Source: Terebella lapidaria
Taxonomy: Eukaryota; Annelida; Polychaeta; Terebellida; Terebellidae
DNA: 64,000 nt
Direction: 5' to 3'
Assembly: GCA_949152475.1 (NCBI GenBank)
Contig: OX424556.1
Coordinates: 11,900,664-11,964,663, forward strand
The notes beneath the pieces are model-generated. The model was not told the origin of the DNA. It did not search any database and was given only the letters and a program-made list of their open reading frames with translations. The first letter of the stretch is position 1; every line of letters begins with the position of its first letter. A program made the position numbers and the translations under genes. Positions 14,151 through 50,460 of the stretch are shown here, piece by piece.

Positions 14151-15480
14151 AGCTTACCGATCCATATGGGCCGATAAGCTATTGTCATGGTTTGTTGTCC
14201 GTCGTCCGTCCGGCAAAGAATTTTTTTTGCCTTGATGAATTTTTTGAAAATTTACTAAAACATTCCTTGGGCTAATAGCCTGAGAGATTTTTTTCCGGTT
14301 TTTTTTTATTCAATAGTTTTTGCCGATTTGGCGGCCATTTTTTGATGAAAAATGGCTAACTTTGGACATTGATGACCTTTTCCTCAAAGTTGTCTGATCA
14401 GTTTTGAGATAGATTTTTTCCCCAAAACATTCCCCTCATGTACCTCTATGCGGCGTATGAGTTTGGTTGCCCTTGAATCGCCGCTCTGCGTGTGGCAGCC
14501 ATTATGATTTTTCGACGGGTCCCAAATGGCATTTTCCCATGTTAAATTCTCCTAGATGCTTTAAATGGGACATATATATTGTTACCAATATCTCTCTTAA
14601 TATTGTGATTAGAAATTAGGGATTAGTTGTGAACATATAAGAAATATATATGCCGAATATTCTCATGACCTTGAACTTGACCTCTGATCGCATTTTCAAG
14701 GTCACAGCACAAAAATGGCTGATATCTCGCTTATTATCGACTTTTACAGCTTAGAAGACAATTGTGGACATATAGGAAATGATATATTTGAATATTGTCA
14801 TGACCTTGAATTTGACCTTTGATCTCATTTTCAAGGTCAGGGAAAAAAACGTCTGATATCTCGCTTATTATCGATTTTACAGCATAGGAATCTATTGTGA
14901 ACATATAGGAAATGATATATGCTGAATATTCTCATGACCTTGAACTTGACCTTTGACCTTATTTTGAAGGTCAGAGCACAAAACGGCTAATATCTCGCTT
15001 ATTATAACTGTACAGCTTGATAATCAATTGTGAACGTATAGGAAATGATATATGCTAAATATTTTCATGACCTTGAACTTGACCTTCGACCTGCTCAGAA
15101 TGGCTGATAGCTCGCTTATTATCGACTTTACAGCTTGGGAATCAATTGTTAACATATAAAAAATGATAAATGCTGAAAATTGTCGTGACCTTATTTTGAA
15201 GGTCAGAGCACAAATAACTAATATCTTACTTATTATCGACCTGATGGTAAGGAAATATATTGTGTACATTTAGGAAATGATATAAGCTGAATATTCTCAT
15301 CACCTCGAACTTGACCTTCGACCTTATTTCAAGGTCGGAGCACAAAATGACTAATATCTCGCTTGTTATTAATTTTATGGCTTTGGGTTCAATTGTGACC
15401 TGATGAAATAATATATGGTTAATATTGTTATGACTTTGAACTTGACCTTTGACCTCATTTTCCCTTCATAATGGGAGCTG
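14151..15480 (-). mobile_element. Hairpin-ended element, AGCTTACCG subfamily
   Basis: On the minus strand the 3' end is a 30-nt hairpin (14151-14180; arms AGCTTACCGATCC and GGGCCGATAAGCT), next to a GTCC-rich microsatellite (14197-14215). Further right are six to seven ~130-bp core units containing TGACCTTGAACTTGACC, ATATCTCGCTTATTATCG and GAAATGATATATGC. The 5' end is not clear; the array fades near 15480. The terminal hairpin replaces GGTTACC with GCTTACC. Confidence 0.6.
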
Positions 15481-21658: not shown

Positions 21659-24600
21659 TTAGGTGGCCTCGGCTGTCTGCTCCTCCCCAGCTTGGCTGCT
21701 GATGTCCGTCTGACTCTCCTCCGTTGACTGTTTCGAGTCCTCATCCTGTTGGCTGTCCATGGCCGCAGCCTGTCCTGCAGAGTTGCTGACTGCCGATGCG
21801 ATCTTGCTGATGAGCGAGGAGGCAAAGCCGGCAGTGGGGACTTCTGCAGCCTGTGGGTCCTGAACAGTTTCCACAGCGTTGTCGAGTGCAGCCGGTTTGC
21901 TTCCACCTGTGCGGTCCAAGTCGATGACCATGACGTCGTCCTCGTCTGCCACGACATCCTCGTCTCCTTTCTGCTCCAGTCCCTCCATCTGTGTGTCCAG
22001 GTAGCTCTTGACATCCAGGATCTTCTGCTTCTCCTTCTGTAGGTACTCAGCCTTCATCACACCCACGTCACTCGGAACAAGCTGACCCTCAGGCGATTTG
22101 CTAACTGACTCTTCCTTTTTTACATCTTTTTCACCTTCAACACTGCACGATTCCTGATGCATTTTCGGATCTGGTGAGAGATTCAAGTCTTTGGATAAGT
22201 TGAAATTTTTGGACACGTTGATGTTTGTGGACAAGTTCAAGTCCTTGGACAGATTGAGGTCCTTGGATACGTTCAAGTCCTTGGACAGATTGAGGTCCTT
22301 GGATACGTTCAAGTCCTTGGACACATTCAAGCTGGAGTCTCTATGGCCATCCTTCTTCAAACTTGTCTCTCGTTCTATTTCTTCCTTTGACAGTTTGTCA
22401 GTCAGTAGCTGTTCATCATTGAAGCATTTCTTCATGTGAGAGAGTAGCGTGGCCTTCTTTTCAAAGTAGATCTTACAGTTACAGCAGATGGAATCCCGGT
22501 AGCTTTTCGTGTGAATGAAGCGATGTTCTTTGAGCGAGTCTGGACGAGCAAAATACTTGAAGCAGTCAGTACATTGATGTTGCTTACCAGTCATGTGGTA
22601 ACGGATATGGCGTGTGCGATTATTTCTACCCGTAAATGTTTGTGAGCAAAATTTACAAGGATATCGACCATGGGCAGACAGCGTGTGGTCCTCGAATGCT
22701 TGGAATCCAATACATATGAAACTGCAACCCCATTGGCCACAAGTGAACTCTTTGGTGTCGCTTTCTTTGCTGACTTGCAACAACTTGTCATGGGGAATGG
22801 GACTGAACGAGATGTTTGTATCTTTCTTTGAACGCATTTTGGGAGATACACTCCAGGAAGCCTCTTGCTTGACCAAGCTCACCTTGGGGATTGGCACTTT
22901 AGGGGTGGCTGCAGTGGGCGCGTTGGAGCTAACGAGGACAACTATAGGTGGCTTGGGCTCGATAGCTCTGTTACCATCTAAGGCCTTTGTAATGGATGAC
23001 GCACTAGCAATTGTCCTTGGAACATTCACCTTTTTCTGTGACGAACCTTTGCTTTTGGGCTTCGGTTTGCCTTTTTGTTCATTTTCCTTCTCTCTTTCTT
23101 CTGCAATCAGGACATCTTTGTTTTGGTACAAGTTCTCATTGACTTGCTTCATTATGTCTTCCAAAGACTGGTCAGCCATTCCGAATGTCGCAGGAAACTT
23201 TTCCAGTTTCGGTAACCCCTCTGCTGTTGCATCAGTGTCGAAACGCTGTCGCTTGATGTCTCCCATTTCCTGTACCCAATCTTCTGAGCCTCGCTTACCC
23301 GACACTGCTTTGGAGATGTCAGTCATCCCCTCCCCCTCGTCTTCTCCCACCAGACCACTGCTGACCAGCTTGGAGGGCTTGCTCTTACGCCTGCTTGAAC
23401 GCTTCATGAAGTCGGCCTCGTTACTGTCGTTCTCTTCTTTGATGACGAGAGGACTGCCGAAGTAGAGTCCCACATCCTCTGGCTCCTGGCCTGGACCCGT
23501 CAAAGAGAGTGATGGCGAGAGCTCACCAGATGCCGGGGAATCAAGGTCACCGCCCGCCACAGAGATCCTCTGCACAGTGTCTGGGTGGAGCGCCATCTCG
23601 TAGGTTCCATCGTTGGTGTCGTTCTCACTGGAACCGTCCATGCTGTCCTGGGAGCCATTTAAGACCGGTGTACTGCAGGCTGACTCCGGGTCGGTCAGCA
23701 CATGACCTCCTTCGACCAGTGACTGTGTGTGTGACAATCTGTGAGCCTGGAACTGATTTGCATCATGGAACACCTTCTCACATATACTGCAAGCATACAC
23801 ACAATGCTTCTCTTTGTGCACTTTGTACATGTGTAGACGCAAGTTGACAGCATTACGGAAAGATTTGGGACATTTGCTGCAAGAAATCAGGTCTGGAGTT
23901 TGCTCTGCCGCGTGCTTGCGCAAGTGTGCCTTGAGATCGGCTGAGCGGGAGAAGAGTTTCTTGCAGTAGCTGCATGCATGTGGTTTGACGCCAGCGTGGA
24001 GCCGCTCGTGACGTCGGAGGTTACAACGCATGGAGAACGTGTTGCAGCACTGGCGGCAGGCATAGCGCTTGTGCATCTCAAGGGTGTGACTCTGAAGGTC
24101 CTTGAAGTTCTCAAATGTGATGGCACACAGTTTGCAGGTGACGTTAGTCGCTGGCAGGATTTCGTCGAGATCCAGGTCCACGGAGCTCTCTGACTCTGCC
24201 TCTTCCTTGATATGTACGCCGTCATCATTGCCAGCCTCGGATCCTGCCTCAGATCCGTCCTTCTCCTTTTTCAGCCACACCGGCTGTGGTTGGTTCAGAA
24301 TCGTGGCTGAGGAAGAACTGTTGTCATGGTTATTCTTGTTGCCGAGGAGAGCTCGCAGAGACTGGTTGCTGACAGTCAGTGTCCCTGGCAAAGTATTGGA
24401 TGTGGAAGTTTCCAGCGTGACTGCCTGAGATGTACTGTTCTGTATTACACTAGCACCACTCTTCAGGTTCGGCAGGGACAAGTTCAGGGGCATGAGGCCA
24501 CCTTTCCTGACCGGGGTCGAGTGTTTGACACCACTGGGAGGCGTCTTACCTGAGACATTGGACACAATCTTGCCAGCTTCAATCACAACTTTTTTGCTCC

Positions 24601-24844
24601 CATCTTGTGAGTTTTTCTGCGATGGCAAGTTTTTTGGCTCTGGTTTCTCCAAGGCTTTGTGGATCTTTATCACGATTTGCTGAGAAGGCTCCCGTCCTGA
24701 CACACAGAAGATGCCATCGATTTCCAGTCGGCCTTCCCATGGAAGGCTCTGTGTACACAGTTCTACCAAGGCCTTCTGCAGCATGCTGTTCAGCAGCGGC
24801 TGGTACTGATACACCCACATCTTCTCAGCCTCCTGCAGCAACAT
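21659..24844 (-). CDS. C2H2 zinc-finger protein with novel N-terminal domain, 1061 residues
   Basis: Probable nuclear DNA-binding regulator; no named orthologue recognised. Residues 9-66 form a compact domain (LVELC, LEIDGIFCVSG, QQIVIKIHKAL) shared with the paralogue at 31086-33731. An acidic patch with IKEE follows (about 210-230). Five C2H2 fingers lie at 237-258, 262-283, 291-311, 322-343 and 352-372, then a long Ser/Lys-rich linker with basic patches (SRRKSK, KRQRF). A second cluster at 702-725, 730-750, 758-778 and about 787-807 ends in a CCHC-like finger. Residues 839-890 are a hexamer repeat of LNVSKD/LNLSKD. VMVIDLD at 971-977, in an acidic setting, fits a SUMO-interaction motif. The coding part is one exon. 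The ATG at 24844 is the first in frame after a splice acceptor at 24928-24927; the Met at residue 9 is an alternative start. It was probably produced by tandem duplication with its neighbour. Confidence 0.9.
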   Translation of the reverse strand: MLLQEAEKMWVYQYQPLLNSMLQKALVELCTQSLPWEGRLEIDGIFCVSGREPSQQIVIKIHKALEKPEPKNLPSQKNSQDGSKKVVIEAGKIVSNVSGKTPPSGVKHSTPVRKGGLMPLNLSLPNLKSGASVIQNSTSQAVTLETSTSNTLPGTLTVSNQSLRALLGNKNNHDNSSSSATILNQPQPVWLKKEKDGSEAGSEAGNDDGVHIKEEAESESSVDLDLDEILPATNVTCKLCAITFENFKDLQSHTLEMHKRYACRQCCNTFSMRCNLRRHERLHAGVKPHACSYCKKLFSRSADLKAHLRKHAAEQTPDLISCSKCPKSFRNAVNLRLHMYKVHKEKHCVYACSICEKVFHDANQFQAHRLSHTQSLVEGGHVLTDPESACSTPVLNGSQDSMDGSSENDTNDGTYEMALHPDTVQRISVAGGDLDSPASGELSPSLSLTGPGQEPEDVGLYFGSPLVIKEENDSNEADFMKRSSRRKSKPSKLVSSGLVGEDEGEGMTDISKAVSGKRGSEDWVQEMGDIKRQRFDTDATAEGLPKLEKFPATFGMADQSLEDIMKQVNENLYQNKDVLIAEEREKENEQKGKPKPKSKGSSQKKVNVPRTIASASSITKALDGNRAIEPKPPIVVLVSSNAPTAATPKVPIPKVSLVKQEASWSVSPKMRSKKDTNISFSPIPHDKLLQVSKESDTKEFTCGQWGCSFICIGFQAFEDHTLSAHGRYPCKFCSQTFTGRNNRTRHIRYHMTGKQHQCTDCFKYFARPDSLKEHRFIHTKSYRDSICCNCKIYFEKKATLLSHMKKCFNDEQLLTDKLSKEEIERETSLKKDGHRDSSLNVSKDLNVSKDLNLSKDLNVSKDLNLSKDLNLSTNINVSKNFNLSKDLNLSPDPKMHQESCSVEGEKDVKKEESVSKSPEGQLVPSDVGVMKAEYLQKEKQKILDVKSYLDTQMEGLEQKGDEDVVADEDDVMVIDLDRTGGSKPAALDNAVETVQDPQAAEVPTAGFASSLISKIASAVSNSAGQAAAMDSQQDEDSKQSTEESQTDISSQAGEEQTAEAT
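21914..21934 (-). other. Putative SUMO-interaction motif in the zinc-finger protein
   Basis: Residues 971-977 read VMVIDLD within an Asp/Glu-rich stretch (DEDDVMVIDLDRT). A short hydrophobic run of the V-I-D-L kind next to acidic residues is the usual SUMO-binding pattern. This is based only on motif match. Confidence 0.4.
22175..22330 (-). repeat. 18-bp coding minisatellite (LNVSKD/LNLSKD repeat)
   Basis: About eight to nine 18-bp units stand in frame within the zinc-finger gene and encode alternating LNVSKD and LNLSKD. Some units are DNA-identical neighbours, so the tract probably expands and contracts by slippage. The flanking units are more diverged (STNINVSKNF). Confidence 0.9.
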
Positions 24845-24926
24845 TCAAACGGTTTTGTCTGTGTCACAGTCAGTCAAAAATAAGCACAAGCTGTGGTTGT
24901 ACAATGCTGCTTGTCTTCAACATCAC
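24845..24926 (-). promoter_or_regulatory. Leader segment of the 1061-residue gene, with acceptor and small uORF
   Basis: On the minus strand TCCATTTCAG ends at 24927, a good splice acceptor, followed by 82 nt of leader before the start codon. The leader holds a short upstream ORF (24923-24870, 17 codons plus TGA), out of frame with the main start. The paralogue has the same order of acceptor, short uORF and start codon. Confidence 0.6.
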
Positions 24927-27840
24927 CTGAAATGGACAAAAAATACTTGTAGGACACCGAGTTAGAAATTCTCAGCAAATAGGCTTGGTTTGTAATGTAC
25001 CGGTAAATAGTTATCTAAGGTGGCACATGCACTCAAAGTCAATTAATACAATGACTGCATTACTGAATAATTGTAAGCATTTTCCAACATAAAACTCAAT
25101 TTAAATAAACATTTAGTATATTTACAATATCTAAGCTGTTATGAAACATGGTATATATATACTGTTATATAATGGTATGTTTTAGATGACCCTATTTTGC
25201 TGTACATAACTTGAGCATCTTAGGAGGATTAACATGTTATTAAGATGGGATATTAGGGGTTTTTCTTTCTAGTTAGATCACTTACTGCTAGTCATATTAA
25301 TATATGTACACACATGATATGGAATAATTTCACCCTGGATCAGTATTGCTTTTATTTGCTAGATGTAATTCAGCACGTGGCACTTAGAGACATGATAGCT
25401 ATCGGCAGACTGGAGTTTGTCCTGGTGCGGCTCAACATACAAGCGGGACCTCTACCTCCTAACCCCCCCCCACCCCCCCACCTCCACGCTGCTCTAGCTC
25501 CAACCTCCAGTCAATGTGAGTCCTGGGTCCTCAGTATCCCAGACTAAGTAAGTACTGCGTCTGTACACCATGTGACCAGGACAGTTTCCTGGTTCAGTTT
25601 GACAGTATCCTGGTTTACATGGGCACTAGTTATCAACGGACCCATTGTTCCAGGCTCAATGCTATCAGTACTCGATCCAAATGTGGAAATTTCAGGACTG
25701 ATTTCCTGAAATGGCGAGTAATATTAATACTGAATCCTTCCTATCAAACTGTCAACCTAAGTCATGTTATAGGGGTAGGATCCTCAGAATGATATTACTA
25801 TAATATGAGCATATGATGTATATTTGCTACTTCGAATACATTTATTATTCCCAATGTATCAACATGGTAGTTTATCCACTTGAGACATAGGATATAACTT
25901 TGGTGTATACCACACAATCATACAGTATCAGTAATATACTGTTGTCATAGCTCATTCACCATTTCCATTATACTAGTAAACAATATTTGTTCGGATTGAC
26001 AGCATATGAGTCCCAACACTCAGTTACCATATTGGTCCTAATAGTGGCATGCGCCCTAATTGAAAAATGTTCAATTTTTTTGCAGTAGCTGCACGCATGT
26101 GGTTTGACGCCAGGTTACAATTTTTGTAACCTTGTAATTTACTTCAAATCTTTTCAATAAGATCTTGTAAGAGTGTTCCAGTCCACCCATTTATGTTATT
26201 TGAATCATGATAAAGAGGATTGAAGGCTATAAGTTATACCAGTCATTGATTTTTTTGAATTTGACCTCAAGTTTGACATCATTTTTGTGTGCGCTGCTGC
26301 AGGAGGTCTTGATTTAGCACCCCGTGCTACAGGTACTCTTATTGGTATTATCAACAAAATTGAGATATGGGTAAAACAGGCTGCAATTGGCTGTTTCTTT
26401 TCGTTTAGATTATAGTACTGACATTCTACTACGATTTGAATGATATCAATTAAACTGATAAAATTAACCAGAAAAATCGGTAATTGTTTGTACAAGTGCA
26501 AATTACAAGATAATATACGAACTTCATGTGGTTACATGTATATGTTTTTTTCAGTAAGAGCAGTCATCCCCAAATATAATCACATTTGTAGAATCAAGGT
26601 ATGATAGTTTTACGAGAAATAATAATTTCTACAGTAAAGCTCAATGAATAAGTTTCAAAGTACATGTAAATGTTAAGAAACCGGTACAGAAATCATCACG
26701 GCCTCATATCTTTTATTTACCACAGAGAATTACATTGATATAGAGAATGAAGATAAATTTGTTGTATTTTCAATTTAAATCTCTCATTTTTTTGTAAATG
26801 GTAAAGGAATTTGACCTCATTTCTTACATACATGTAACTGAATGTCTTCACAAATGAACCAACATCAACAGTTCATAAGATACAGCAGTAACATATTGAT
26901 ATGTAGCTAACTGGCAACAATTGACATGTTTGTTCTGGTCTTTCCAGCATCAGAACAAAACCTATGAAAAGTTGAAAGCAGAAACTGGACCAGAAAAAAA
27001 TATGCTCTCCATTGACCTTGCAAACTTACATTCCTGAAATAGCAGTGAAAAAGAGTTACATAATCTGATTATTGCATGTATATTAATTTCCATAAGTCAC
27101 TATCAATAACTGCAAGGTGTCTCACTCTTATAACATGTATACATGTAAGTAGATCTACATAGGCTTAGTTTGTTTATTGCATGATATACATAGCAAACAC
27201 ATTCAAAACAAGCATGCCCAATCACTCAACCAGAACATTGTTATTTGCATGTACATTATCATATTATTACTACAGTCACAGTATATACCTAAATATCAGT
27301 ATCATACCTCAACTGTATATCACTTTGAAATCTCGTATATACCACAAACGCGCCATTATTTTGCGTTGACTTTTTTCCCATGCAATAACTCCGGACAATT
27401 GATGTGCGTATTGCCCCGTATGCTGGGCGATCTACAGGTAGCTATATTTGGCGACAAAAGCTCTCGGAATATATACAAACCCCTGATGACATGTCCAGCT
27501 ATATTGAGGGAAGCTATCAGAGGTTTGAATGGAACCATGTGTTGCCCGACCCGCTTGGCCGACATTGGGATTTTTACCTGGCATGTGCTCTCCTTTGTTG
27601 ACGTGGCTGCTTTCCACACATGGGCATATGGCGGCCGGAACAACGCCAGCAGGATCAGTCGGCCATATTTGGTCAATCCGCGCAGCGCTCACTCGCTCAA
27701 TATCAACTGCCCTACTTTAATTAGATCCGTCCAAATCACGCATCAATAGTCTCCGATTTTGTGGATGGCGACCCAAAACATACCACAATTGGCCGAACAC
27801 ACGAGTTTAATGTGTTGTTTGGATGATTGAACGGACAATT
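24927..27840 (-). other. Probable 5' intron of the 1061-residue zinc-finger gene
   Basis: AT-rich DNA with no coding exon on either strand. A C-rich tract (25463-25481) and scattered microsatellite-like AT runs occur. Candidate minus-strand donors include CCAG|GTAAAA near 27574 and GAG|GTATGA near 27308, either of which could pair with the acceptor at 24927. A small zinc-finger-like fragment is at 26080-26113. Confidence 0.45.
26080..26113 (-). pseudogene. Zinc-finger exon fragment inside the intron
   Basis: This minus-strand stretch reads GVKPHACSYCK. It matches the linker and start of the third finger of the downstream gene (coding strand near 23961-23996) at about 33 of 34 bases, and the adjoining codon differs only synonymously (AAG to AAA). 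The similarity stops abruptly on both sides. It may be a remnant of a duplicated finger exon or a gene-conversion patch. Confidence 0.6.
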
Positions 27841-28450
27841 TTCCAGCCGGATTCGGTATAGGATGGCCGTGTATGTCGCTGTGTGTCGCTAGCTTTCCGT
27901 CCGTCCGTGTGTTTGTCTGGCTTGGCGGTCGTTCCTTGCCCCCGCTGTCCGTGACAGCTTGTCCGCCCCTCGCTAGCTCGCCTCACAGCGCCCGCCCGCC
28001 CTCGATCAGGCTCCGCGTACCAGCCCGCGCTCCAGCCTTAACTCTTCAAGCAGCCGCTTCCACCCCCACACATGGTCGCCTTCCAGTCACAGGAAGTAGT
28101 CCATACAGCAGGTGCGCGGTCTCTCGCTCTATACCGCCATATCCTGGATCCCTCCCCTAGCTTCACCTCGTGTCAATCCGACCCCCCTCACCGCTGTCGT
28201 CACTAGCCAGATCTAACGATGGCGGACACAGGACACGACTCTACTCTATATGGCTTTGTATTCCTACAAGTTATATGCGAGCTCAAGCAACATATTTCCC
28301 AGCAGCAGCGAGCTAAATCCCGATGTATATTGCTGAGTTCAGTGGCGGGCTTGTCGTCATAACGTATCACAAAGATTTCAGCACATTTACGGCTAACACA
28401 CGAGTGCATTGATATCGCCCTTTCTCGGCCACGTGGTCCCATAGATGATG
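27840..28450. promoter_or_regulatory. CpG-rich region, candidate promoter
   Basis: Unlike the AT-rich surroundings, this stretch is GC- and CpG-rich (for example the GCGCCCGCCCGCC region near 27990 and CCGTCCGTCC near 27900). It lies 3 kb upstream of the minus-strand zinc-finger start codon and next to a plus-strand ATG in a good context at 28219. A shared, bidirectional promoter is possible. No TATA box is evident. Confidence 0.45.
28219..28362 (+). CDS. Small ORF (47 residues) or first exon, unknown
   Basis: An ATG in a strong context (AACGATGGCGG) opens a 47-codon frame beginning MADTGHDSTLYGFVFLQVIC and ending TAA. The first 30 residues look protein-like (LYGFVFLQVICELKQHISQQQ, a possible helix). 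It starts in the CpG-rich region and points away from the zinc-finger gene. It could be the first exon of a divergent gene, but I see no strong splice donor within it and no continuation to the right. I do not recognise it. Confidence 0.3.
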   Translation: MADTGHDSTLYGFVFLQVICELKQHISQQQRAKSRCILLSSVAGLSS

Positions 28451-28911
28451 ATAGTCGAGTCTACAGCTTGGGATGACATATTGATTGATTGAAATTAGTT
28501 GGACCGTATGCGTCAGCCAAATGCATAGACAGCGCGGCCTAGATCCTAGTAGGCTTCCTCGATATCTGCCCGCATACATTCTATTCATTATCCCAATACC
28601 GTCTGCATTGCTCTCCCCATGTATGCCATTTATCTGATGAACGGCTATTCAAACAGGTCATACATGACTGAATTTATCAATGACCATCTATATTTTCACG
28701 CATGACTGGTAAAATAAAACTAGGAATACTTGTAGAAATGACACAAGTCATACCATAGTACAGTATATCATGTGTATGCAATACCAGGAGTGTATCAAGT
28801 GTAATGAACAAGGTTTCCCAGAAATTAGGATAGTGAAAATTATATCATAGCCACAGCAATACACGGTAGACTTCTGTAAAACATTGAAAACAGTTTAATA
28901 TATAATTAAGC

Positions 28912-28917
28912 TTTATT
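28912..28917 (-). terminator. Candidate poly(A) signal, minus strand
   Basis: TTTATT on the plus strand reads AATAAA on the minus strand, 2.17 kb past the zinc-finger stop codon and near the edge of the AT-rich unique block. Confidence 0.3.
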
Positions 28918-30185
28918 GGTTCTTAAATATATTGATTACATTCTATAGAGATAAAAGTTTACAAAATAATGCAGTAAACTGCTATTTACACGGAATTCAA
29001 GTATTACACAATAATAATTTATTTACAAAATAATTAGGAGAATTTGTTACAGTATATACACATTACTTCAGTGAAAATTACATGTGCACATCAAAATTGG
29101 GAAACAAAATTCCAAGTCAAATTAACAATGTCCCTCTTTACCAATACCCCCAAAACAACTTCAAAATAAACGGAAATTTAAGTATAACAATGATGGAAAT
29201 GATGAACATTATAACAAATATATACACAATTAAACATTGCATCCACTGTCCGGAATGACAAATTTGGTAATGATTTATGTACAAAATATATTTCATGAAA
29301 ATTTCTGACATAACAAATATATAGTAGTTAATGCTCAACATGAGCTTAACCCTGGATAACAAGCATATATGATCACAATTTGTTGTTAGTTGCATCAATC
29401 CCTCTTACTGTATATTAGCTAATCACAAACTGATTGAAAACATCAACTGATGAAGGATTGCAATTATACATGTACAACTAACAAGATGAAACAAATTTTA
29501 TTTTTTTAAAAATTACTCTCTATCATTGTAATAAAAACCAACAAATTGCAATACATCAAGCTTTGACAGCAGCTCCATTATCAAACAGTTGTTGCAAACC
29601 CGTTAAAACCATACATTTCTCTACCTTTCTCCCAGACAATAGTGCAGGAAAGAGTAGGATATTCATCCAATGTTGCAGTACTGCAACATCACTTTATGAT
29701 CACAAATTATTCTGTTAATTCGTTTAGTATCATGCACATAAAGATATCAGATGAACAAGTTGATAATACAAATGTTTGATATATGCATGGTGTGTGGATC
29801 TCTGCATTTCAAGGGTGCTGTTCAGTAACAGATATGAGAATAAATTTCATATTCTGGCTCGTATCAGCTAATACATTCAACAAGATATAAACCACATTCT
29901 GTAAATCGGTTTTAAAAGGTAATGTTTATCAGGATTATTGTATTCAAATTTCTGTCTTTAAGATGACATACCTCAGCCACCATCAACATAGTTCTGTCAT
30001 TAATTGTGTGTACACAAAATACTGAAAGACCTGTCAACAAGGAACAAAATGTTGTCAGGAAATTATTCTATTTATATTAGAAAATACAAATATACATTAT
30101 AGTGCGGAAGACATGTGTTTTTTTAATTATATATTGGATCATGGAAGACCATTAGGATCAACATGGTAAATATGTCATCATTTGT

Positions 30186-30188
<3 letters not shown>

Positions 30189-30236
<48 letters not shown>
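30189..30236. repeat. (TA)n microsatellite
   Basis: About 24 uninterrupted TA dinucleotides, probably inside the 3' UTR of the 881-residue zinc-finger gene. It is likely length-polymorphic. Confidence 0.95.
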
Positions 30237-30240
<4 letters not shown>

Positions 30241-31085
30241 TATCTGCAAATATTAGGGGACAGTTATTCCCATACCAGTACACATAATCAGCACAAAATA
30301 TAAATCATTTATCTGCAAATATACAGTATATATATATTTTATAAATGGGAAGTAACATGTAAGGCACATTTGAGTACATAATTATATTCACAATGAAATT
30401 CATGTATGCCAATGTAAATGGAAGACATGCTAAGTCTTTTAAAACAACATGCACAGTTCAATCTGGAAGACATTAGACACTGTGGGGAACCAGTGGAATT
30501 TTGCATGAAGCCAGTCAAAATATGCATGGTACAATGCAAAACCTTCTAACAAGTCTTTGAAACAAATATTGGTCAACAAAGTTAGCACATTGAGCAACAA
30601 GATTAACAGCATATATCCCGTCGCTTTCATTCAGTACAAGTAGAAAATGCATTTATTCAATACTTTGTGTCTGTTAACTGCCCAAATTGAGGCAGTTGTA
30701 TGCCAGTAGGTAGTTACATGGTCCTAAAACAGCTGAAGTACAAATACTAGTATTAACTATACGGGACGCATGATCACGTTCAAAACATATATATATATAG
30801 ATGTATGTAGAAATAATGAATAAATCTCTTCATGATAGAAAATGAAACATATGTACACAATTCATTTACACATTGAAAATTCATTGCAAACTAAACTCGA
30901 CGAGTATATCATTTGCCAACAATGGATCACCAATTCATCAGAGAATCACTAACTGGACTGCATAAAACAAACTTTTGTAATACTGGGTCCACATGAGGAG
31001 GCATTTCAATTCAATTACCTACACTACCATATAAATAACAATACAACATGTACATTAAGACTTTCGTTGTACTTAATGGAGATGG

Positions 31086-33731
31086 TCACTTGGATTCATC
31101 TGCAGTCAGATCGTTGCCGTTGTCGATGCCGCTGTCGTCGACCTCTCGGACACTCCACTCACCGGTGGCGGCCACAAAGTCATTGGGGACATCTCGCCGC
31201 ATGCTCCAGTCTGCGCCGTAGAGACCGTCCAGGGCAGAGTTCGGCCGGCTGTCATCTGCAGGGTCTCGACCTGGGTCAGCCGGGCTGTCTACGGGACTCA
31301 CTGTCAGCTCCTTTGCTGCCTTGCCCACCGTCGGAAACGCTGTCTGGTGGGCTCTCATTCTGTGAATTTTGAGTTTGTCCCCTCTGGAAAACTTCTCATT
31401 GCAGTTGGGACAGCTATAAGGCTTATCACCTGTATGCAGGCACACATGGCGATCACGGTTGGCTTTCTGAGCAAATGTCTTTGAGCAGAACATGCAAGGG
31501 CTTCGGTTGTGTTCACTGAAGCAGTGCATTTCCAACTCTTGGAAGGATGGATGAATTGAACTACAAATTGAGCAAGTATATGGTCCTTCGGGAATCTCAA
31601 CGTTCATCAGTTTAGGAGACAGCAAAATGTTATTGTTATTGTTAGATTCTGGGCTGGCTGCATTCATTGAAGTTGATGCTTTCTCCGGACTCTTGGTCTT
31701 GTTTCGTTTGCTGGGAGTCTGTCTGGTGTTAGCATGGCGCTGGGTTTTCTCTGGGACGGGTTCCTGCCTGACCCTGGCATGTATCGTTTGGGACAGAAGA
31801 TTCTTGATTGGTTGACTGAGTGGGGACTGACGACCATCATCTGGGGTGATTTCAATTATCGGAGCTGGGTTGTCAGTGACGAGAAATTCGCCGCTGTTGG
31901 TGTGAGTGATGTAGCCTGCTGGTCCGCCATTGGACATCTGCTGTTCTGTGTCTTCAGGTGACTCGGGCTCCACTATTTCCACGTCACTCTCTGGAGACAT
32001 ATCTTCCATGTTTTTGACAGACTTCGGTAGTTTCTGTTTGCGCTTGTTCTTTGGTGTATCTTCTGTGTTTCTGGGATTGCTGGTTTTCTCGGCACGGTTT
32101 GGGTAGACATAGTGACCCTCCTGCTCAATGTGACTACAGATATCGGCATAGTTGTCATACTCTTGCTGGCAGACAGTGCAGGCGAAACCGGAGTCAGACT
32201 TCTGGTGTATCTCGAGGTGTTCTTCCAGCAGCTGAGCGGTCTGGAAGGTCTTGCTACACATGGTGCAGCGAAATGCATCCATGTTCTCCCGGTCCGCGTC
32301 AGACTGCTCCACATCCTCGTCGATGTTCAGGTGGATGTGAGTGGCTTCGTGGCGTCGCAGACTCGTCAGTGTGGGACAAATCTGCCGGCAGATACAGCAC
32401 TCAAAGATGTTGGTTTCATCACTGTGAACGAGTAGATGGTCGCTGTAGTGGAGAGGATCGTCATACAGCTTGGAGCAAGACAGACAGGTGTAGCAGCGAG
32501 CATTGTCTTGGTGAATGATGCGATGTTTGATCATTGTGAGCTTGTCTGCAGTACGGAAGCTGCAGGTTTTGCAGACAAGGCTAGCCTGGTGGGGACTGGT
32601 GGGGGCTGTGGACAGGTTCTGTGGCATACAGACATCGTCATCGTCGTCCCTGGAGGTCATGCACTGAGGGTGAACCTTGAGGTGCTCCTCGTACTGCTCA
32701 GCACTGGAGAAGCCCTTGTTGCACAGCTCGCAGATATTGGTCAGGACGGCATTGTGGTCATAGGAGTAGTGGGTGACCAGCAGCTTCTTGTCGTTAAAGC
32801 GCTTGGAGCAGGTGCCACATTTGTAGGCATGTTTGGTGGCATGATTGGAGAGGTGGTCCTTGCGGGAGAACGTTTTCCCACAGATCGTGCAGCCGTATGG
32901 ACGGTGGCCAGTATGCAGTCGCGAGTGTCGCTCCAGATTGGATCGAGATGTGAAGGTCTTGAAGCAGCTCTGACAGGTGAACACACTGTGAACTGCCTCA
33001 TTGTGGTCACTCAAACCCTCAAAGCTTTCAAACGTGTAACCACATGGCTTGCACTCAGGTATGCTGGGGATAGGTTGGTTGGGGGACCATCTGTCGCTTC
33101 GCAGTGGAATTCTTCGAGGGAAAATACTGAGTGGTGTGGAGGTGTAAGGGAACTGGCTGCCGGGTGGTGGGGACTGAGACTCTGACATGTCCACTTCAGA
33201 CGAGAAGTTGGTTGCCTGTCCCATACCTGGGGAAAGTGGGGCGACTTCAATCACGCCGCTGGAAGACGTATCTCGGTTCTGCATGCCGTTCTTCCGCAGG
33301 TCGTGTACTTCTCGCAGGTCTCTGGAATGATGGGAAGGGTTCATCAAGTGCTGTTTCAAGTTTGGGTAGCTGTCGGCTTCGTGAGACTTGGTCATGGCGT
33401 CATCCATCCGTGATCCTCGGACTGAGTCATCTATACGTCGCCTCTTCAGACTGTAATCTTCTGCGTTGTCTTCCTGGTGACTGGCGCTGACGACCGAGCT
33501 CCAACCTTCCCTTGGGCGAGCCAGGAAGTCTGTGAGAGCCAAACTCCCAGCATTGTTGCCTAGGCGCTCATGGATCTTGACAACAATCTCCTGGCCTTCG
33601 CTCTGACCACTAATGCACACGATGGCGTCCACATCAAACTGGCCCCCATACACCTGCTGGTTCTTGCAGACGTGCAGGATGGAATCCCTCAGCAAGCGGC
33701 TGATTGTTTGCTTCTCCCACTGCGAAGACAT
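31086..33731 (-). CDS. C2H2 zinc-finger protein with novel N-terminal domain, 881 residues
   Basis: Paralogue of the 21659-24844 gene and probable nuclear regulator; no named orthologue recognised. Residues 4-57 hold the shared N-terminal domain (LLRDSILHVC, FDVDAIVCISG, GQEIVVKIHERL). A basic KRRRI (97-100) may be a nuclear signal. The first cluster has five fingers at 227-248, 253-273, 281-301, 305-326 and 334-354. Five looser fingers lie at 387-407, 416-436, 446-465, 489-509 and 518-540. A linker contains VEIVEPE (584-590, possible SUMO-interaction motif), KNKRKQK and an Asn run. Three last fingers lie at 720-741, 746-766 and 774-795, followed by an acidic tail. The start is the ATG at 33731 (context GGCGGGATGTC). 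The frame stays open upstream to 33809, but only with a TTG, so the extension is not used. The coding part is a single exon. Confidence 0.9.
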   Translation of the reverse strand: MSSQWEKQTISRLLRDSILHVCKNQQVYGGQFDVDAIVCISGQSEGQEIVVKIHERLGNNAGSLALTDFLARPREGWSSVVSASHQEDNAEDYSLKRRRIDDSVRGSRMDDAMTKSHEADSYPNLKQHLMNPSHHSRDLREVHDLRKNGMQNRDTSSSGVIEVAPLSPGMGQATNFSSEVDMSESQSPPPGSQFPYTSTPLSIFPRRIPLRSDRWSPNQPIPSIPECKPCGYTFESFEGLSDHNEAVHSVFTCQSCFKTFTSRSNLERHSRLHTGHRPYGCTICGKTFSRKDHLSNHATKHAYKCGTCSKRFNDKKLLVTHYSYDHNAVLTNICELCNKGFSSAEQYEEHLKVHPQCMTSRDDDDDVCMPQNLSTAPTSPHQASLVCKTCSFRTADKLTMIKHRIIHQDNARCYTCLSCSKLYDDPLHYSDHLLVHSDETNIFECCICRQICPTLTSLRRHEATHIHLNIDEDVEQSDADRENMDAFRCTMCSKTFQTAQLLEEHLEIHQKSDSGFACTVCQQEYDNYADICSHIEQEGHYVYPNRAEKTSNPRNTEDTPKNKRKQKLPKSVKNMEDMSPESDVEIVEPESPEDTEQQMSNGGPAGYITHTNSGEFLVTDNPAPIIEITPDDGRQSPLSQPIKNLLSQTIHARVRQEPVPEKTQRHANTRQTPSKRNKTKSPEKASTSMNAASPESNNNNNILLSPKLMNVEIPEGPYTCSICSSIHPSFQELEMHCFSEHNRSPCMFCSKTFAQKANRDRHVCLHTGDKPYSCPNCNEKFSRGDKLKIHRMRAHQTAFPTVGKAAKELTVSPVDSPADPGRDPADDSRPNSALDGLYGADWSMRRDVPNDFVAATGEWSVREVDDSGIDNGNDLTADESK

Positions 33732-33853: not shown

Positions 33854-36800
33854 CTGGAAAATATGAAAGATTCATTCAGTTAATTAACAAAATTTATGTG
33901 AATTGGTGGAGGAAATTGTGATCACATCTTGAATGACACTCACTACATAATTATGTTCAAGGGAAACATAATGGTGTGTTGTTTAACATTCTGAGTTCAA
34001 TGAACATCATTTTATTTTCATCACAGTTGGTTACCATTTTACTGGTAATTTTACACCAGTCCATACTTCCCTTCACGAACTTCTGTTAGGAGTAGTGTAC
34101 TTTACACATGCATAACTTGTAAACTTTTTTAATGTTGGTGTGCATGTACTCCGTGTTTTTGAACAACACTACACTTAATCTGTTTTTGGGTCACCGCCAT
34201 GCCTGGTCCTGATGTTATGTAATGCGTCTTTTATAAAAGTGAATGCTTGAAATGATAAAAAGACACTGTATTCACAGGACCATGGAGTGTCTTCTGTCCC
34301 ACTACCAGCGAAAACATCCAAGAAATGCGATGTTTGCTCATTAATGTGTACAATTCCCATGTAAAGGAAATGCTTCTGGCCACTGACATATAATTATTTA
34401 CTTTTACAAGTTACAACAGCTTGAGATGGTTTCTGCGCACAATAAACTTACCTATATGTAACTATCAGAGAATAACATTTACTGGAAACGATGAATATGA
34501 TCCAAAAGCTTTTGCCAGTGATGTGACCCTATTTGGAAGTTTAGACCCTGTTCTTCCAGGTTCCTGTCCTGCGTCTGACATGACCAAGTTGACAACCCAG
34601 CAGTTATATAGAACTTCCCTTACCTGTTGCTGCGTGCCTGTCCTCAAATCCCCCCTCCCCACCCCTTTAAATCTACCTGTCCCTGCCTGCATAGTAACAT
34701 ACCTCCACTGTCAGCCAACTAGCCACTGCTAAGCCACTTAGCTGGTAACAAAATCAGCCTGGTTTCAATGTTCACAGAGCGCTATGAATATTCATGAGCT
34801 TGTAGCAGCCTGTTTCCCTTTGAGCTGGAGTGGACTGCTATACACAAATATATGTGTGGCCAGGGGGCAGAGTCTCCACTGCCTCCCACTCTGCGCAGTT
34901 AGCGGCCCACAGGACTGCCACAAGTTTGTACAGGACCCAGACATTCCTCCTGAGGATCGAGGTGTCATGCTTGAAAAGTTCCGTTAGAAGTCCCCCTCCT
35001 ATCCAACACCACCCAGCCATCCAACAAGTGGCAGGCTTCTTGCTTGGCTGACTCCACACTCAGCCCCCCAGGCGCTCTGTATTCACACAGGGGAAAACTT
35101 TTCCCTTTTATGATCAGCCAGCATGATCACTACAAACACACAATATATGCGCACTCAACAGCCCAACCATTTTATCAGGTAGAATTTCTCAGAACTAGTT
35201 CACACAGGGGGAAATGTAACCTAAGGATCTACATACCTGTACTTGTGATCTTACTTCAACTTAATGACCATTCACTCATAGACTTACCTTAAAACAATTG
35301 CTCCTTAATGGCTTTAACTAACTGATTTATTATCCCAAACATATCTAGGTAATAACCCACACCAATATCCCAGTCTTCATTTAGGGAAACGTCATCACAT
35401 TCGATGATTCGATTTCGAGTCATATTTGATCATTTTTTGAGTGCCAAGCATTTAATTGATCCAGATCTATAAAATTCATTTATGAGGAAATTTTGAATTC
35501 AGAATACCCATTAATATGAAGACATATAAGTAGCCCAGAACACATCAGATCAATTTAGCTTTAATATCCTGTGAATTGCAATTTTATGCCCTGAAAGGCA
35601 CCAAACGAAATTGAATGGGTACAAACCCAAGCAGATTAAGACAGATCAATTAGTAACTATCCGGTACATGGACGAGCCCATAATACACATACAATAGGCA
35701 AGTGATGTGTGTCTAATACCGATATTCATTCAATAATATATTACTCTATACACCAATTTGCTAACACTGAATACTGGACCTTACCACTGCTTACTGGTAT
35801 ATATTGCACCCACTATTGAATCAGCACATAACATGCATAACATTTCAGAAGGATTATACAAGTCCCTGTAGACTATTCACCAGTACATATACTGTAACAT
35901 AATGAACATGAGACAAAAATCTGTTGGTATAAAGACCTAAGCTCAGGCAGAGATAGCTAAAGAAAACTTTTCCTTATTCACTTTGCTGAATGTACACTTT
36001 AATGTGACAGAGTAATTCAGTTCCTCTTTCTACAAACAAGTGACCTAAATAAACTCTTGACTGAATATGCGGTTCCCAGAATCGAGTTACTGTACCTTTC
36101 AGAGCCACGGGGCGTGAGGTCTTCCTACCTTCACTCGACTAATGATACATCCAATATGTGATCACTTATTTTGGTGATCAAGTCCAAGACAAAGTATTAG
36201 GTGGATTTGATCCTTATCTGGGGTCCCAGCCACTGGTTAATAATGTCGCAGCCTAGTCGCTGGGTACTTGAATGATTTCCACAATCTGTTGGCTATGTCC
36301 CAACAAGTCCCTTGGGACCCGACAACATGCGGGGCAGGGGGGTGTGCAACAGGCTACAAAGTCCTCTACAGGCCCATGCAGGCTTGGAAATGTGGGAACA
36401 ACCTCTGTGTGTACATACTGAAGCTGTATACAAGAGCAAACAAGGGGTCTCGCTCACATACACAGTGCTTGACATGAGTGGATTGGGTTAGATATTGTCC
36501 CAGCGCCGGGGCCGGCTGGCTGATCAATGCTATAAGCTGGGTCACCACTCCAAGCCTAAAGTTGACTCTCTCTCCCGCACTTGCGGATCTGCCTGGGCAC
36601 ACACAGCCTGGCGTTTTTTCACCAGTGCAGACTTTGTGTCACACTGTTCAGGGAAATCCAATCATTACACTTTCTGGCAGTCACATACACACAAAAGCGC
36701 CGTAAATAAAGTTGTCATCACAATTAACGGCGAAAGTCTCTTGACTGTGATGTCAAGTTCATATATAGCATGTGAATAGTACATGCATGGTACATAATTT

Positions 36801-39294: not shown

Positions 39295-41151
39295 TTAGCC
39301 CAATGGGCTAGTAAGGTTACCGGAGAAATATACAGAGTTAAGCCGAGAAAGTTGAAAGTCAAATTCAAGGTGACCACTGAAATCGCCATATCTCTAACCT
39401 TGAAAATGGGATCAAAGGTTAAATTCTAGATCACCAAACTATTCAGCATACATCATTTCCTATATGTTCACTTTGGACCCCTAAGCTGTAAATTTGATAA
39501 TAAGCGAGATATAAGCCATTTTGTCCTGTTGACCTTGAAAATGAGGTCAAAGGTCAAATTCAAGGTCATTAGAATTTTCAGCATATATCATTTCCTATAT
39601 GTTCACAATTAATTCCTAAGCTGTAAAGTCGCTAATAAGCAAGATATTGGCCATTTTGTCCTGTGACCTTGAAAATAGGTCAAAGGTCAAATTCAAGGTC
39701 ATGAGCATTTTCAGCATATCATTTCCTATATGTTCACAATTGATTCCTAAGCTGTAAAATCGCTAATAAGCAAGATATTGGCCATTTTGTCCTGTGACCT
39801 TGAAAATAGGCAAAGGTCAAATTCAAGGTCACGAGCATTTTCAGCATATATCATTTCCTATATGTTCACAATTGATTCCTAAGCTGTAAAGTCGCTAATA
39901 AGCAAGATATTGGCCATTTTGTCCTGTGACCTCGAAAATGAGGTCAAAGGTCAAATTCAAGGTCACGAGAATATTCAGCATATATCATTTCCCACATGTT
40001 CACAATTGATTCCTAAGCTGTAAAGTCGATAATAAGCAAGATATCAGCAATTTTGTCCTGTGACCTTGGAAAAATGAGGTCAAAGGTCAAATTCAAGCAC
40101 ATCAAGGTCATGAGAATATTCTGCGTATATCATTTCCTATATGTTCACAATTGATTCCTAAGCTGTAAAGTCGATAATAAGCGAGATCTTAGCCATTTTG
40201 TCATGTGACCTTCAAAATGAGGTCAAAGGTCAAATTCAAGGTCATGAGAAAATTCAGCATATATCATTTCCTATATATCCACAATTGATTCCTAAGCTGT
40301 AAAATCGATAATAAGTGAGATATTAGCCATTTTGTCCTGTGACCTTGAAAATGAGGTCAAAGGTCAAATTCAAGGTCATGACAATAATCTGCATATATCA
40401 TTTCCAATATGTTCATAATTGATTCCTAAGCTGTAAAGTCGATAACAAGCGAGATATTAGCCATTTTGTCCTGTGACCTTGAAAATGAGGTCAAAGGTCA
40501 AATTCAAGGTCATCAGAATATTCAGCATATATCATTTCCTATATATGTCCACAATTGATTCCTAAGCTGTAGAGTCGATAATAAGCGAGATATAAGCCAT
40601 TTTGTGCTCTGACCTTGAAACTGAGGTCAGAGGTCAAATTCAAGGTCACGAGAATATTCAGCATATATCATTTCCTATATGTCCACAATTGATTCCTAGT
40701 CTCTAATCTCAATATCAAGTGAGATATTAGGCATAATGTGTCCCATTATAAAGCATAGGAGAATTTAACATGGGAAAGTCCCATTTGGGCCCAGTTTGGG
40801 CCAAAATGGCCCACTTCGAGCGATTCAAGCGCAACGAAATTTATAGACATCATAGGAGTACATACAAGGAGTCTTATGTATCAAAAAGAAAAAAAGTTAC
40901 TGAACAGATTTTGAGAAAATGGCCGCCAAAGTCCAAAATCAGGCATTTTTCGTCGAAAACGGCTGCCATTTTGAAAAAAATGCGAAAATCAAAAAACTAC
41001 CTCCTTCTTGAATTATTTTTGAGTATTTTTGTGCAAAATTTCAGAAAAATTTGCCCGTAAACAAAAAAGATAAAAATGTGGACGACGACGACGACGGACG
41101 ATGGACGCAACGCCATGCCAATAGGTTATCGGACCATAGGTCCGGTAACCT
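39295..41151 (+). mobile_element. Array unit E1, hairpin-ended element
   Basis: Begins TTAGCCCAATGGGCTA, then AGGTTACCGGAG. It contains about nine core units of ~135 bp with AGGTCAAAGGTCA and TTCAAGGTCA, then a CCCATTTGGGCCC / AAAATGGCCGCC tail block, a GACGAC microsatellite and a 29-nt hairpin at 41123-41151 (arms AGGTTATCGGACC and GGTCCGGTAACCT, loop ATA). The next unit follows after six A residues. Confidence 0.75.
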
Positions 41152-41157
41152 AAAAAA

Positions 41158-42425
41158 TTAGGCCAAGGGCCGAAGATAGGTTACCGGACAATGTTTAATA
41201 TTTTAGATGTTAGCCAGGTCAGTGGTTGAATTCAGGGTCAAGAGAATATTCAGCATATATAACATTAGGCATATATCATGTCCACAGTTGATTGCTAAGC
41301 TGTGAATTCAATAATCAGAGAGATATTAGCAATTTTGTGCTGTGGCCTTGAAAATGAAGGGGCGTAGGTCGAATTCAAGGTCATCAAAATATTCAATGTA
41401 TATCATTTTCTATATCATGTCCACAATTGATTCCCAAGCGATACAGTCAATAGAGGAGCAAGATATGAGCCAGTTTGTCCTGTGACCTTGAAAATGAGGT
41501 CAGAGGCCAAATTCAAGGTCCCGAGAATATTCAGCATATATCATCTCCTATATGTCCACAATTGATTCCTAAGCTGTGAAATCGATAATAAGTGAGATAT
41601 TAGCCATTTTGTCCTGTGACCTTGAAAATGAGGTCAAAGGTCAAATTCAAGGTCATGACAATAATCTGCATATATCATTTCCTATATGTTCATATTTGAT
41701 TGCTAAGCTGTAAAGTCGATAACAAGCGAGATATTAGCCATTTTGTCCTGTGACCTTGAAATGAGGTCGAAGGTCAAATTCAGGGTCATTGGAATATTCA
41801 GCATATATCATTTCCTATATGTCCACAATTGATTCCTAAGCTGTAGAGTCGATAATAAGCGAGATATATGCCATTTTGTCCTGTGACCTTGAAAATGAGG
41901 TCGAGGGTCAAATTCAAAGTCATCAGAATATTCAGCATATATCATTTCCTATATGTCCACAATTGATTCCTAGTCTCTAATCTCAATATCAAGTGAGATA
42001 TTAGGCATAATGTGTCCCATTATAAAGCATAGGAGAATTTAACATGGGAAAGTCCCATTTGGGCCCAGTTTGGGCCAAAATGGCCCACTTCGAGCGATTC
42101 AAGCGCAACGAAATTTATAGACATCATAGGAGTACATACAAGGAGTCTTATGTATCAAAAAGAAAAAAAGTTACTGAACAGATTTTGAGAAAATGGCCGC
42201 CAAAGTCCAAAATCAGGCATTTTTCGTCGAAAACGGCTGCCATTTTGAAAAAAATGCGAAAATCAAAAAACTACCTCCTTCTTGAATTATTTTTGAGTAT
42301 TTTTGTGCAAAATTTCAGAAAAATTTGCCCGTAAACAAAAAAGATAAAAATGTGGACGACGACGACGACGGACAATGGACGCAACGCCATGCCAATAGGT
42401 TATCGGACCATAGGTCCGGTAACCT
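41158..42425 (+). mobile_element. Array unit E2
   Basis: Begins TTAGGCCAAGGGCC and ends in a 29-nt hairpin at 42397-42425. The segment around its 3' half repeats the end of E1 at a fixed offset of 1274 bp with almost no differences. One visible change is GACGATGGAC against GACAATGGAC. Confidence 0.75.
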
Positions 42426-42431
42426 AAAAAA

Positions 42432-43966
42432 TTAGGCCAAGGGCCGAAGATAGGTTACCGGACAATGTTTAATATTTTAGATGTTAGCCAGGTCAGTGGT
42501 TGAATTCAGGGTCAAGAGAATATTCAGCATATATAACATTAGGCATATATCATGTCCACAGTTGATTGCTAAGCTGTGAATTCAATAATCAGAGAGATAT
42601 TAGCAATTTTGTGCTGTGGCCTTGAAAATGAAGGGGCGTAGGTCGAATTCAAGGTCATCAAAATATTCAATGTATATCATTTTCTATATCATGTCCACAA
42701 TTGATTCCCAAGCGATACAGTCAATAGAGGAGCAAGATATGAGCCAGTTTGTCCTGTGACCTTGAAAATGAGGTCAGAGGCCAAATTCAAGGTCCCGAGA
42801 ATATTCAGCATATATCATCTCCTATATGTCCACAATTGATTCCTAAGCTGTGAAATCGATAATAAGTGAGATATTAGCCATTTTGTCCTGTGACCTTGAA
42901 AATGAGGTCAAAGGTCAAATTCAAGGTCATGACAATAATCTGCATATATCATTTCCTATATGTTCATATTTGATTGCTAAGCTGTAAAGTCGATAACAAG
43001 CGAGATATTAGCCATTTTGTCCTGTGACCTTGAAATGAGGTCGAAGGTCAAATTCAGGGTCATTGGAATATTCAGCATATATCATTTCCTATATGTCCAC
43101 AATTGATTCCTAAGCTGTAGAGTCGATAATAAGCGAGATATATGCCATTTTGTCCTGTGACCTTGAAAATGAGGTCGAGGGTCAAATTCAAAGTCATCAG
43201 AATATTCAGCATATATCATTTCCTATATGTCCACAATTGATTCCTAAGCTGTAGAGTCAATAATAAGCGAGCTATAAGCCATTTTGTGCTCTGACCTTGA
43301 AACTGAGGTCAGAGGTCAAATTCAAGGTCACGAGAATATTCAGCATATATTATTTCCTATATGTCCACAATTGATTCCTAAGCTGTAGAGTCGATAATAA
43401 GCGAGATATAAGCCATTTTGTGCTCTGACCTTGAAACTGAGGTCAGAGGTCAAATTCAAGGTCACGAGAATATTCAGCATATATCATTTCCTATATGTCC
43501 ACAATTGATTCCTAGTCTCTAATCTCAATATCAAGTGAGATATTAGGCATAATGTGTCCCATTATAAAGCATAGGAGAATTTAACATGGGAAAGTCCCAT
43601 TTGGGCCAAAATGGCCCACTTGGAGCGATTCAAGCGCAACGAAATTTATAGACATCATAGGAGTACATATCAGGAGTCTTATGTATCAAAAAGAAAAAAA
43701 GTTACTGAACAGATTTTGAGAAAATGGCCGCCAAAGTCCAAAATCAGGCATTTTTCGTCGAAAACGGCCGACATTTTGAAAAAAATGCGAAAATCAAAAA
43801 ACTAAAAAATACCTCCTTCTTGAATTATTTTTAAAGATTTTTGTGCAAAATTTCAGAAAAATTCGCCCATAAACAAAAAAGCTAAAAATGTGGACGACGA
43901 CGACGACAACGGACGACGGACGCAACACCATGCCAATAGGTTATCGGACCATAGGTCCGGTAACCT
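42432..43966 (+). mobile_element. Array unit E3
   Basis: Begins TTAGGCCAAGGGCC after an A run. Its first ~800 bp are nearly identical to E2. It then has extra ~133-bp core units and a more diverged tail, and ends in a 29-nt hairpin at 43938-43966. Confidence 0.75.
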
Positions 43967-49765: not shown

Positions 49766-50460
49766 AAAATGCCAACTCAGCAAATAAAATTCAGGTCCAC
49801 GTTCATCCCTAATACCCCTCAGACATTTTTCTAGGTTGACAAGTCTGAAATGAGGTCAAGGTCAAAGTTCATCTGAAATATCCATCAGACAGTTTTGTCT
49901 AAGGTGACGTGTCTGAAAATAGCGTTCGTTTCGCTCTACGAGGCACAGTTTCCGAGTTATGCAGGAAGCCTCTTGCTCAGCAAAAAATCTTCCAAGCTCT
50001 AGGTTGACTTGACCATATGACCCCAAAATCGATAGGGTCCTTCCCTGGCGATATATGGACCTCCATGCAAAATTTTGCAGACATTTATTTCATCCTCATA
50101 GACCTCGGAAGGCTCGGATCCAGCTCCAAAACTATTCAGCACTTCTAATACTGGTATGTCCGATCAGTGGTGTTTTGAGTCAATCTGTTGAGGCATTTTC
50201 CAGTTATTGCGTGGAAAAAGAAACGGAGGAAAGTGAAAAAGAAAAACATAGCACCAAGGGTGCTGTAGCTTACCGGCAATCATGTGAATTGCGTAGAATA
50301 CTGAATACATATAAATTGTTACACTGATGTTAAAAACAATATGTTAAAACATCTTCGTAAATGTTGATAGAAACACATTTCCTGTATGGACTATAATACG
50401 AAATCAAGTTACATCTTGAAAGATTTTTTTCGTTAATGACAAATTTTCACAGACAGTCGA
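49766..50460. other. Repeat remnant and unique DNA
   Basis: 49775-49960 is a diverged, reversed copy of the unit found at 16040-17250. 49961-50460 looks unique, with no gene and only weak short open frames. Confidence 0.55.

Follow-up and report, generated by a model that had tools for sequence, protein, structure and literature searches.

Two neighbouring genes in a 64-kb stretch of contig OX424556.1 of Terebella lapidaria (the whole stretch is hereafter called the window), gene A and gene B, encode C2H2 zinc-finger proteins that begin with the same module of about 55 residues. This module, which we call the head, lies outside any finger and recurs in the home genome. We propose, with a probability of roughly 0.6, that it is an N-terminal domain defining a family of about 50 genes for C2H2 regulators, and that it makes a protein contact, most likely by pairing. 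A defined head makes otherwise anonymous finger genes recognizable, countable and testable.

The head occupies residues ~8–57 in both proteins. BLASTP aligned head A with head B without gaps, with 15 of 48 residues identical, 32 of 48 positive and an expectation value (E) of 7e-12 for that single comparison. Sixteen of the 64 aligned columns are identical between the two (M1, L14, C22, G30, D35, I37, C39, S41, G42, Q47, I49, V50, K52, I53, H54 and L57). Each head also retrieved the other gene when the whole assembly (761.6 Mb) was searched: E was 6.3e-5 with head A as query and 5.8e-5 with head B. Because the two heads find each other at a genome-wide E of ~6e-5, their likeness is above chance, and the common N-terminal module reported in a preliminary description of the window was borne out. 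Both products are C2H2 zinc-finger proteins, as PF00096, with a curated cut-off of 25.2 bits, scored 63.3 in A and 88 in B; in a Pfam scan of the full proteins, the finger families alone passed their cut-offs and the remaining rows were sub-threshold. The matching fingers noted in the same description could be traced in collinear order through both genes, with 36% identity over 141 aa (A 229–369/B 227–359, E 1.6e-23) and 44% identity over 77 aa of the last finger cluster. The genes had further been taken for tandem duplicates. They are adjacent, lie on the same strand, have collinear domains and are sisters in the tree of heads (support 98/85), so that A and B are old tandem duplicates, from a scattered branch of the family (group I, see below). 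The duplication is old because the branch of head A in the tree is long (3.26), the two heads are 31% identical and head B is closer (47%) to two heads on contig C1. A six-frame search of the window with four head profiles found no third head; weak rows at 44113–44250 (+, E 0.016) and 49903–50004 (+, E 0.076) were judged to be chance matches.

The head is not confined to the pair from which it had been described: the home genome holds 47 further distinct heads. Single-head searches against the assembly returned 49 distinct heads, spread over 52 places, and for 43 of the heads the best E was 1e-3 or lower. The three surplus places carry a head already counted; they are C1:50551575, C199:448978 (identical protein, differing DNA) and C385:8753, the last called a repeat on equal scores alone. 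For the six weaker heads the best E was 0.0035 (C2:35310), 0.014 (C8:38677), 0.023 (C8:24175), 0.031 (C8:19217), 0.18 (C8:40067) and 0.92 (C9:10383); C2:35310 and C9:10383 nonetheless carry C2H2 fingers. Contig C8, which makes up 5.7% of the assembly (43.07 Mb), bears 38 of the 49 heads. A methionine stands within ten residues before to six after the head start in 48 of 51 list entries; of the other three, two are chance fragments and one is truncated at the locus end. The module therefore lies at the N-terminus of the protein. One cysteine column is conserved in 45 of 49 heads, and the column of C39 in the window heads is mostly glycine in group II. With the same head recurring in numerous finger genes of the assembly, these genes form an expanded family of head-bearing zinc-finger (ZNF) genes.

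The place C12:16228655 (L014) was excluded from the 49; at C12:16228655–16228738 it holds 28 residues that resemble the group I head and include an internal stop codon (E 0.66), perhaps a decayed head copy. At C334:77800–78400 (L090) and C385:8753, a frameshifted group II head copy was found, near C14:27817813 and C8:5862666; its head is split over two frames and it is likely a pseudogene. A pattern scan gave six stretches in viral contigs and 24 in prokaryote contigs, none of them confirmed, which has no bearing on animals. Our guess is that the head family is lineage-specific; similar N-termini may also occur in predicted proteins of other invertebrates.

The 49 heads fall into two groups. 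In a tree calculated from 62 columns, which are few for so many rows, and with a bootstrap that had not settled, a split supported at 96/96 separated group I (eight scattered heads: A, B, C1:97562, C1:50551, C2:35310, C9:10383, C14:15963 and C8:38677) from group II, which comprises 41 heads and has 37 of these on C8. The tree program issued a long-branch warning that included head A, and exact placements are uncertain. Comparison of five group I rows with the other 44 rows by HHalign gave a probability of 98.7, and comparison with 28 core group II rows gave 97.4. Among the window frames, the core group II profile recognized gene B at E 2e-4.

Fingers were found downstream of the heads. Of 42 three-kb loci compared with a strict finger pattern, 14 had a match downstream on the head strand, one had a match on the opposite strand and none had an upstream match; L072, where the pattern lies in another frame within the head exon, was dropped, so that 13 of the 14 were kept. 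The locus L078, scanned on both strands, contained no finger pattern. At C8:24160, a head exon is followed by an intron and an exon with seven fingers, and longer sequence yielded fingers also for C9:10383 and C1:50538. Altogether, fingers were seen directly for 16 of the 49 heads and linked by distance for five more, i.e. for 21. The zf-C2H2 places on C8 are those listed after scoring 150 of 4298 candidates; among the places listed, 12 of 13 (six of seven clusters) lie 1.4–44 kb downstream of a same-strand head, where block shuffling of the C8 clusters gave a mean of 0.24 and none of 20000 shuffles reached 12. None of these 13 listed places is upstream of a head within 45 kb. In 17 of 34 group II loci, the head frame contains a phase-0 CAG/GTR donor-like site (the slash marks the putative exon end). 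Over the 34 loci, 19 such sites are in phase 0, six in phase 1 and none in phase 2, an excess in keeping with the finger-exon phase seen in L099, described below.

One locus on C8 shows several finger exons behind a single head. Head C8:39006839 (−) is followed on the same strand by six finger exons (C8:38970136–38990540). The exon at 38989947 is 47% identical to the query, and of the five at 38970136–38983859, which are arranged in tandem units of ~3.27 kb, four are 100% and one is 95% identical. The 3.7 kb read within this array (L099, 38980300–38984000) contains a single finger exon in full, whose start is acceptor-like and which has a stop, and the beginning of the next exon; no head above noise was found in these 3.7 kb. 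This arrangement is compatible with alternative 3′ exons, with orphaned or very recent duplicates and with an assembly artefact. Other finger genes of the assembly were also encountered. Dense C2H2 clusters lie at C5:1.1–2.8 Mb and 8.0–8.2 Mb and look like a different finger family, since the head searches list no place on C5. A finger in a 210-aa frame recurs, each time with an identical score, at 15 places spread over C1, C7, C11 and C194, several of them within 10–20 kb of one another, and is possibly a mobile or amplified repeat.

The preliminary description had left the fold of the head to structure prediction. AlphaFold2, provided with an alignment of the two window heads alone, gave a helix-strand-strand arrangement for both, with predicted local distance difference test (pLDDT) values of 67.5 and 69.9 and predicted template modelling (pTM) scores of 0.43 and 0.50, i.e. 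with moderate confidence. A lone helix with a two-stranded hairpin of this size usually needs a partner to bury its hydrophobic faces, and for this reason we favour dimerization. The heads have also diverged between the two groups, as pairing modules can. We offer both points as arguments and not as evidence.

The residues following the head were analysed for SUMO-consensus sites (psi-K-x-E) in 44 linkers, a linker being everything that follows the head within its open frame (10450 aa in total; some linkers include fingers or read into introns); L078 and L090 were excluded from these counts and from the selection analysis below. The 44 linkers contain 52 sites, distributed over 31 of them, compared with a mean of ~6.8 and a maximum of 15 in shuffled sequences, and five reversed or altered motifs occur two to four times each, below their shuffle means. 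Within the first 150 residues after the head, 25 of 36 group II linkers contain 42 sites (shuffle mean 4.2, maximum 11), and the reversed motif occurs twice (mean 4.1). Gene A has six consensus sites, at residues 183, 204, 460, 650, 900 and 922. Enrichment of the SUMO consensus is thus a trait of group II, which gene A possibly shares.

In the mechanism that we propose, the fingers would select the DNA site, while the head, in line with the partner binding suggested in the preliminary description, would contact a protein, most likely another head, to form homo- or heterodimers. A SUMOylated linker would serve to bring in repressors in group II genes and perhaps in gene A as well. Group II has multiplied on contig C8, in many cases with the head in one exon and the fingers in exons further downstream. 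The main rival to a pairing head is a box that recruits a corepressor: the helix-hairpin would then act as a monomer and bind a single conserved cofactor, group II having in SUMO a second means of silencing, and the head would work like KRAB and not like SCAN, BTB or ZAD. The layout of head exon, linker and finger exon and the clustering of the genes resemble those of KRAB and FiNZ genes (PMC10547256), the SUMO consensus is present in group II linkers, and close group II heads are conserved while their linkers differ. The other 46 aligned heads are only 10–32% identical to head A, more divergent than would be expected of heads that all bind one surface of a single cofactor, and we know of no cofactor for the head; a corepressor box is thus a possible reading, which we hold to be less probable than a pairing head.

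The searches for known domains bear on a further reading, in which the head is the remnant of a winged helix whose recognition helix and wing touch nucleic acid. A Pfam-A scan of 47 of the 49 heads at E <= 1 listed ten families, none of them KRAB, SCAN, BTB or zf-AD, so the earlier placement of the head outside these four held; no head was seen to pass a curated Pfam cut-off. The sole recurrent row was STN1_2, which matched 26 of the 47 heads (for example the group II head L028:1492–1677), with a best E of 3.4e-4 in one of the 47, and which in five listed heads covers positions 56–108 of the 167 in the profile and most of the head. STN1_2 is the C-terminal, winged-helix part of STN1, a telomere protein and CST subunit. 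These matches are what a winged-helix remnant would lead one to expect, but the best of them, the top of 47 related queries, reaches 21.0 bits against a curated cut-off of 27.2, and neither window head matches STN1_2 in the Pfam scans. Moreover, a PDB search with the 47-head profile retrieved no STN1 chain at E <= 10, and Foldseek comparison of both models with the PDB gave nothing at E <= 0.001 (nine matches, best 6.9, and 56 matches, best 0.97). We therefore regard a winged-helix remnant as improbable.

Other rows of these searches concern few heads or short segments. Two Pfam families, DUF7726 (E 0.0079) and Pga1 (E 0.0099), matched one head each of the 47. An NCBIfam scan of 12 heads, which were also scanned against Pfam, gave one row, UriR, at E 0.051 in one of the 12. 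The PDB was searched with profiles of 12 and 47 heads and with one single head. Rows for PKA RI-alpha (E 0.0061–0.13 with 47 heads and 0.0094–0.17 with 12) cover 18–21 residues of one helix and were set aside. Farnesyl pyrophosphate synthetase and delta-endotoxin (E 0.5–0.57), entry 4nqi (E 0.83, single-head query) and an E2F-DP chain from the Foldseek comparison (E 9.2) were rejected. In searches of the open-licence full-text literature, typical head peptide strings included, no paper listed had a title or abstract opening that describes the head, most subscription journals lying outside this coverage; other databases could hold the head unnamed.

The heads were also compared for signs of selection. 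Among 51 close head pairs formed by 19 heads, the synonymous rate (dS) was finite in 13, and in all 13 the ratio of the nonsynonymous rate (dN) to dS was 0.04–0.5, with a median of 0.09; the other 38 pairs are saturated at silent sites, with heads still >= 66% identical. Most of these duplications are thus old, and purifying selection acts on the head, as shown for close heads of group II. That the heads are a functionless leftover N-terminus of duplicated zinc-finger genes is very improbable: the duplication of A and B would account for their common N-termini with no special cause, but dN lies far below dS in the 13 finite pairs, the 38 further pairs have kept their heads, and the head is retained in scattered genes on C1, C2, C9 and C14.

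Several observations weigh against a head-defined family of pairing regulators. The core group II profile recognizes gene A among the window frames at just E 1.5, and the link of A to group II therefore depends on the group I intermediates. Six of the 49 heads are weak matches, and no finger was seen for 28 of the 49, which were not read far enough. The distance limit of 45 kb used on C8 was chosen after the list had been seen, and at 5 or 20 kb just one of the 13 places qualifies; finger places without a head also occur on C8, at 1669555 and 6798890–6800344. The models are of moderate confidence, and the two sequences behind each of them are the same. For group I, enrichment in SUMO-consensus sites is not clear, with seven in eight linkers (maximum 8 and mean 1.9 in shuffled sequences); over its full length gene B contains none, compared with six in gene A. 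The linkers and the head pairs are paralogous, so that their counts are not independent. Finally, we infer protein contact, dimerization, SUMOylation and repression alike from sequence.

Tetrapods (KRAB), insects (ZAD) and cyprinid fish (FiNZ) each have large zinc-finger families with an N-terminal module of their own. By analogy, the present head may work as KRAB-, ZAD-, SCAN- and FiNZ-type heads do, but it falls outside these families wherever membership could be tested. KRAB is helical, whereas the present head is modelled as a helix and hairpin and gave no Pfam KRAB row. Like KRAB-ZNF genes of tetrapods, the present genes combine an N-terminal module before C2H2 arrays with clustering and with what may be lineage expansion, and several group II genes have separate head and finger exons. 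KRAB is described as recruiting SETDB1 via TRIM28 (PMC10547256). FiNZ is described as a glutamate-rich module of 28 residues, found only in cyprinids, with 684 genes in zebrafish (PMC10547256). The FiNZ-ZNF genes are similar in that a head without known relatives sits on a lineage-expanded finger family (in the present case a possible lineage expansion), with a head exon followed by a finger exon (PMC10547256). The present head, compared with FiNZ by description alone, differs in having ~55 residues and two predicted strands, and 49 were found. ZAD, the head of insect ZAD-ZNF proteins, binds zinc via four cysteines; in the present head, by contrast, a single cysteine is conserved, and no Pfam zf-AD row was obtained. 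BTB and SCAN are N-terminal dimerization domains ahead of C2H2 fingers; neither gave a Pfam row. The present head has roughly half the length of a BTB domain and, with its predicted hairpin, differs from SCAN, which is all-helical. The C8 head with six finger exons behind it recalls lola and mod(mdg4) of Drosophila, in both of which the head is a BTB domain and common 5′ exons are joined to one of many alternative 3′ exons; alternative splicing of the C8 locus is putative.

More speculatively, a helix-hairpin dimerization head with a SUMO-loaded linker in the expanded branch might be the independently evolved counterpart of KRAB, ZAD and FiNZ in this animal lineage, multiplied on one chromosome, with alternative 3′ exons at at least one locus giving several finger arrays per head. 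We consider this combination possible and do not lean on it; if the alternative 3′ exons are real, few heads would serve many DNA specificities. Large zinc-finger counts are reported for molluscs and cuttlefish, and no such N-terminal module is named in the available parts of the two sources (PMC10547256, PMC13218726). This raises the questions of whether each lineage has its own effector head and whether heads converge on SUMO-dependent silencing.

Table 1. Positions in the window of genes A and B and of features assigned to them
Feature	Position	Strand	Remark
Gene A, head + C2H2 protein, 1053 aa, one open coding frame	21659..24820	-	Met at 24820, stop ending 21659
Gene B, head + C2H2 protein, 881 aa, one open coding frame	31086..33731	-	Met at 33731, stop ending 31086
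Head of gene A, residues 1-57	24650..24820	-	Predicted helix 3-25, strands 32-40 and 48-55
Head of gene B, residues 1-57	33561..33731	-	Predicted helix 4-25, strands 31-41 and 47-56
Gene A, first finger cluster, residues ~229-364	23729..24136	-	Collinear with gene B
Gene A, last finger cluster, residues ~693-799	22424..22744	-	
Gene B, first finger cluster, residues ~228-353	32673..33050	-	
Gene B, middle finger cluster, residues ~385-541	32109..32579	-	
Gene B, last finger cluster, residues ~720-795	31347..31574	-	Collinear with last cluster of gene A
Gene A, first of six SUMO-consensus (psi-K-x-E) sites	24263..24274	-	Consensus match only
Putative splice-acceptor AG 5′ of gene A frame (edge of 5′ untranslated exon)	24927..24928	-	By eye
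Putative splice-acceptor AG 5′ of gene B frame	33854..33855	-	By eye

Gene A also contains an in-frame 18/36-bp minisatellite (window 22182–22331, −), which encodes a repeat of approximately DLNVSK/DLNLSK. Elsewhere in the window, tandem arrays of a ~134-bp repeat with a similar unit lie at 2259–3578, 14627–15192 and 39397–44930, in both orientations going by the consensus letters. Two open frames at 5316–7155 (+) match the organic anion transporter family OATP (Pfam E 5.7e-26 and 3e-6). A 570-aa open frame at 52099–53808 (+) contains a reverse transcriptase domain (RVT_1, E 6.9e-36) and is probably a retrotransposon.
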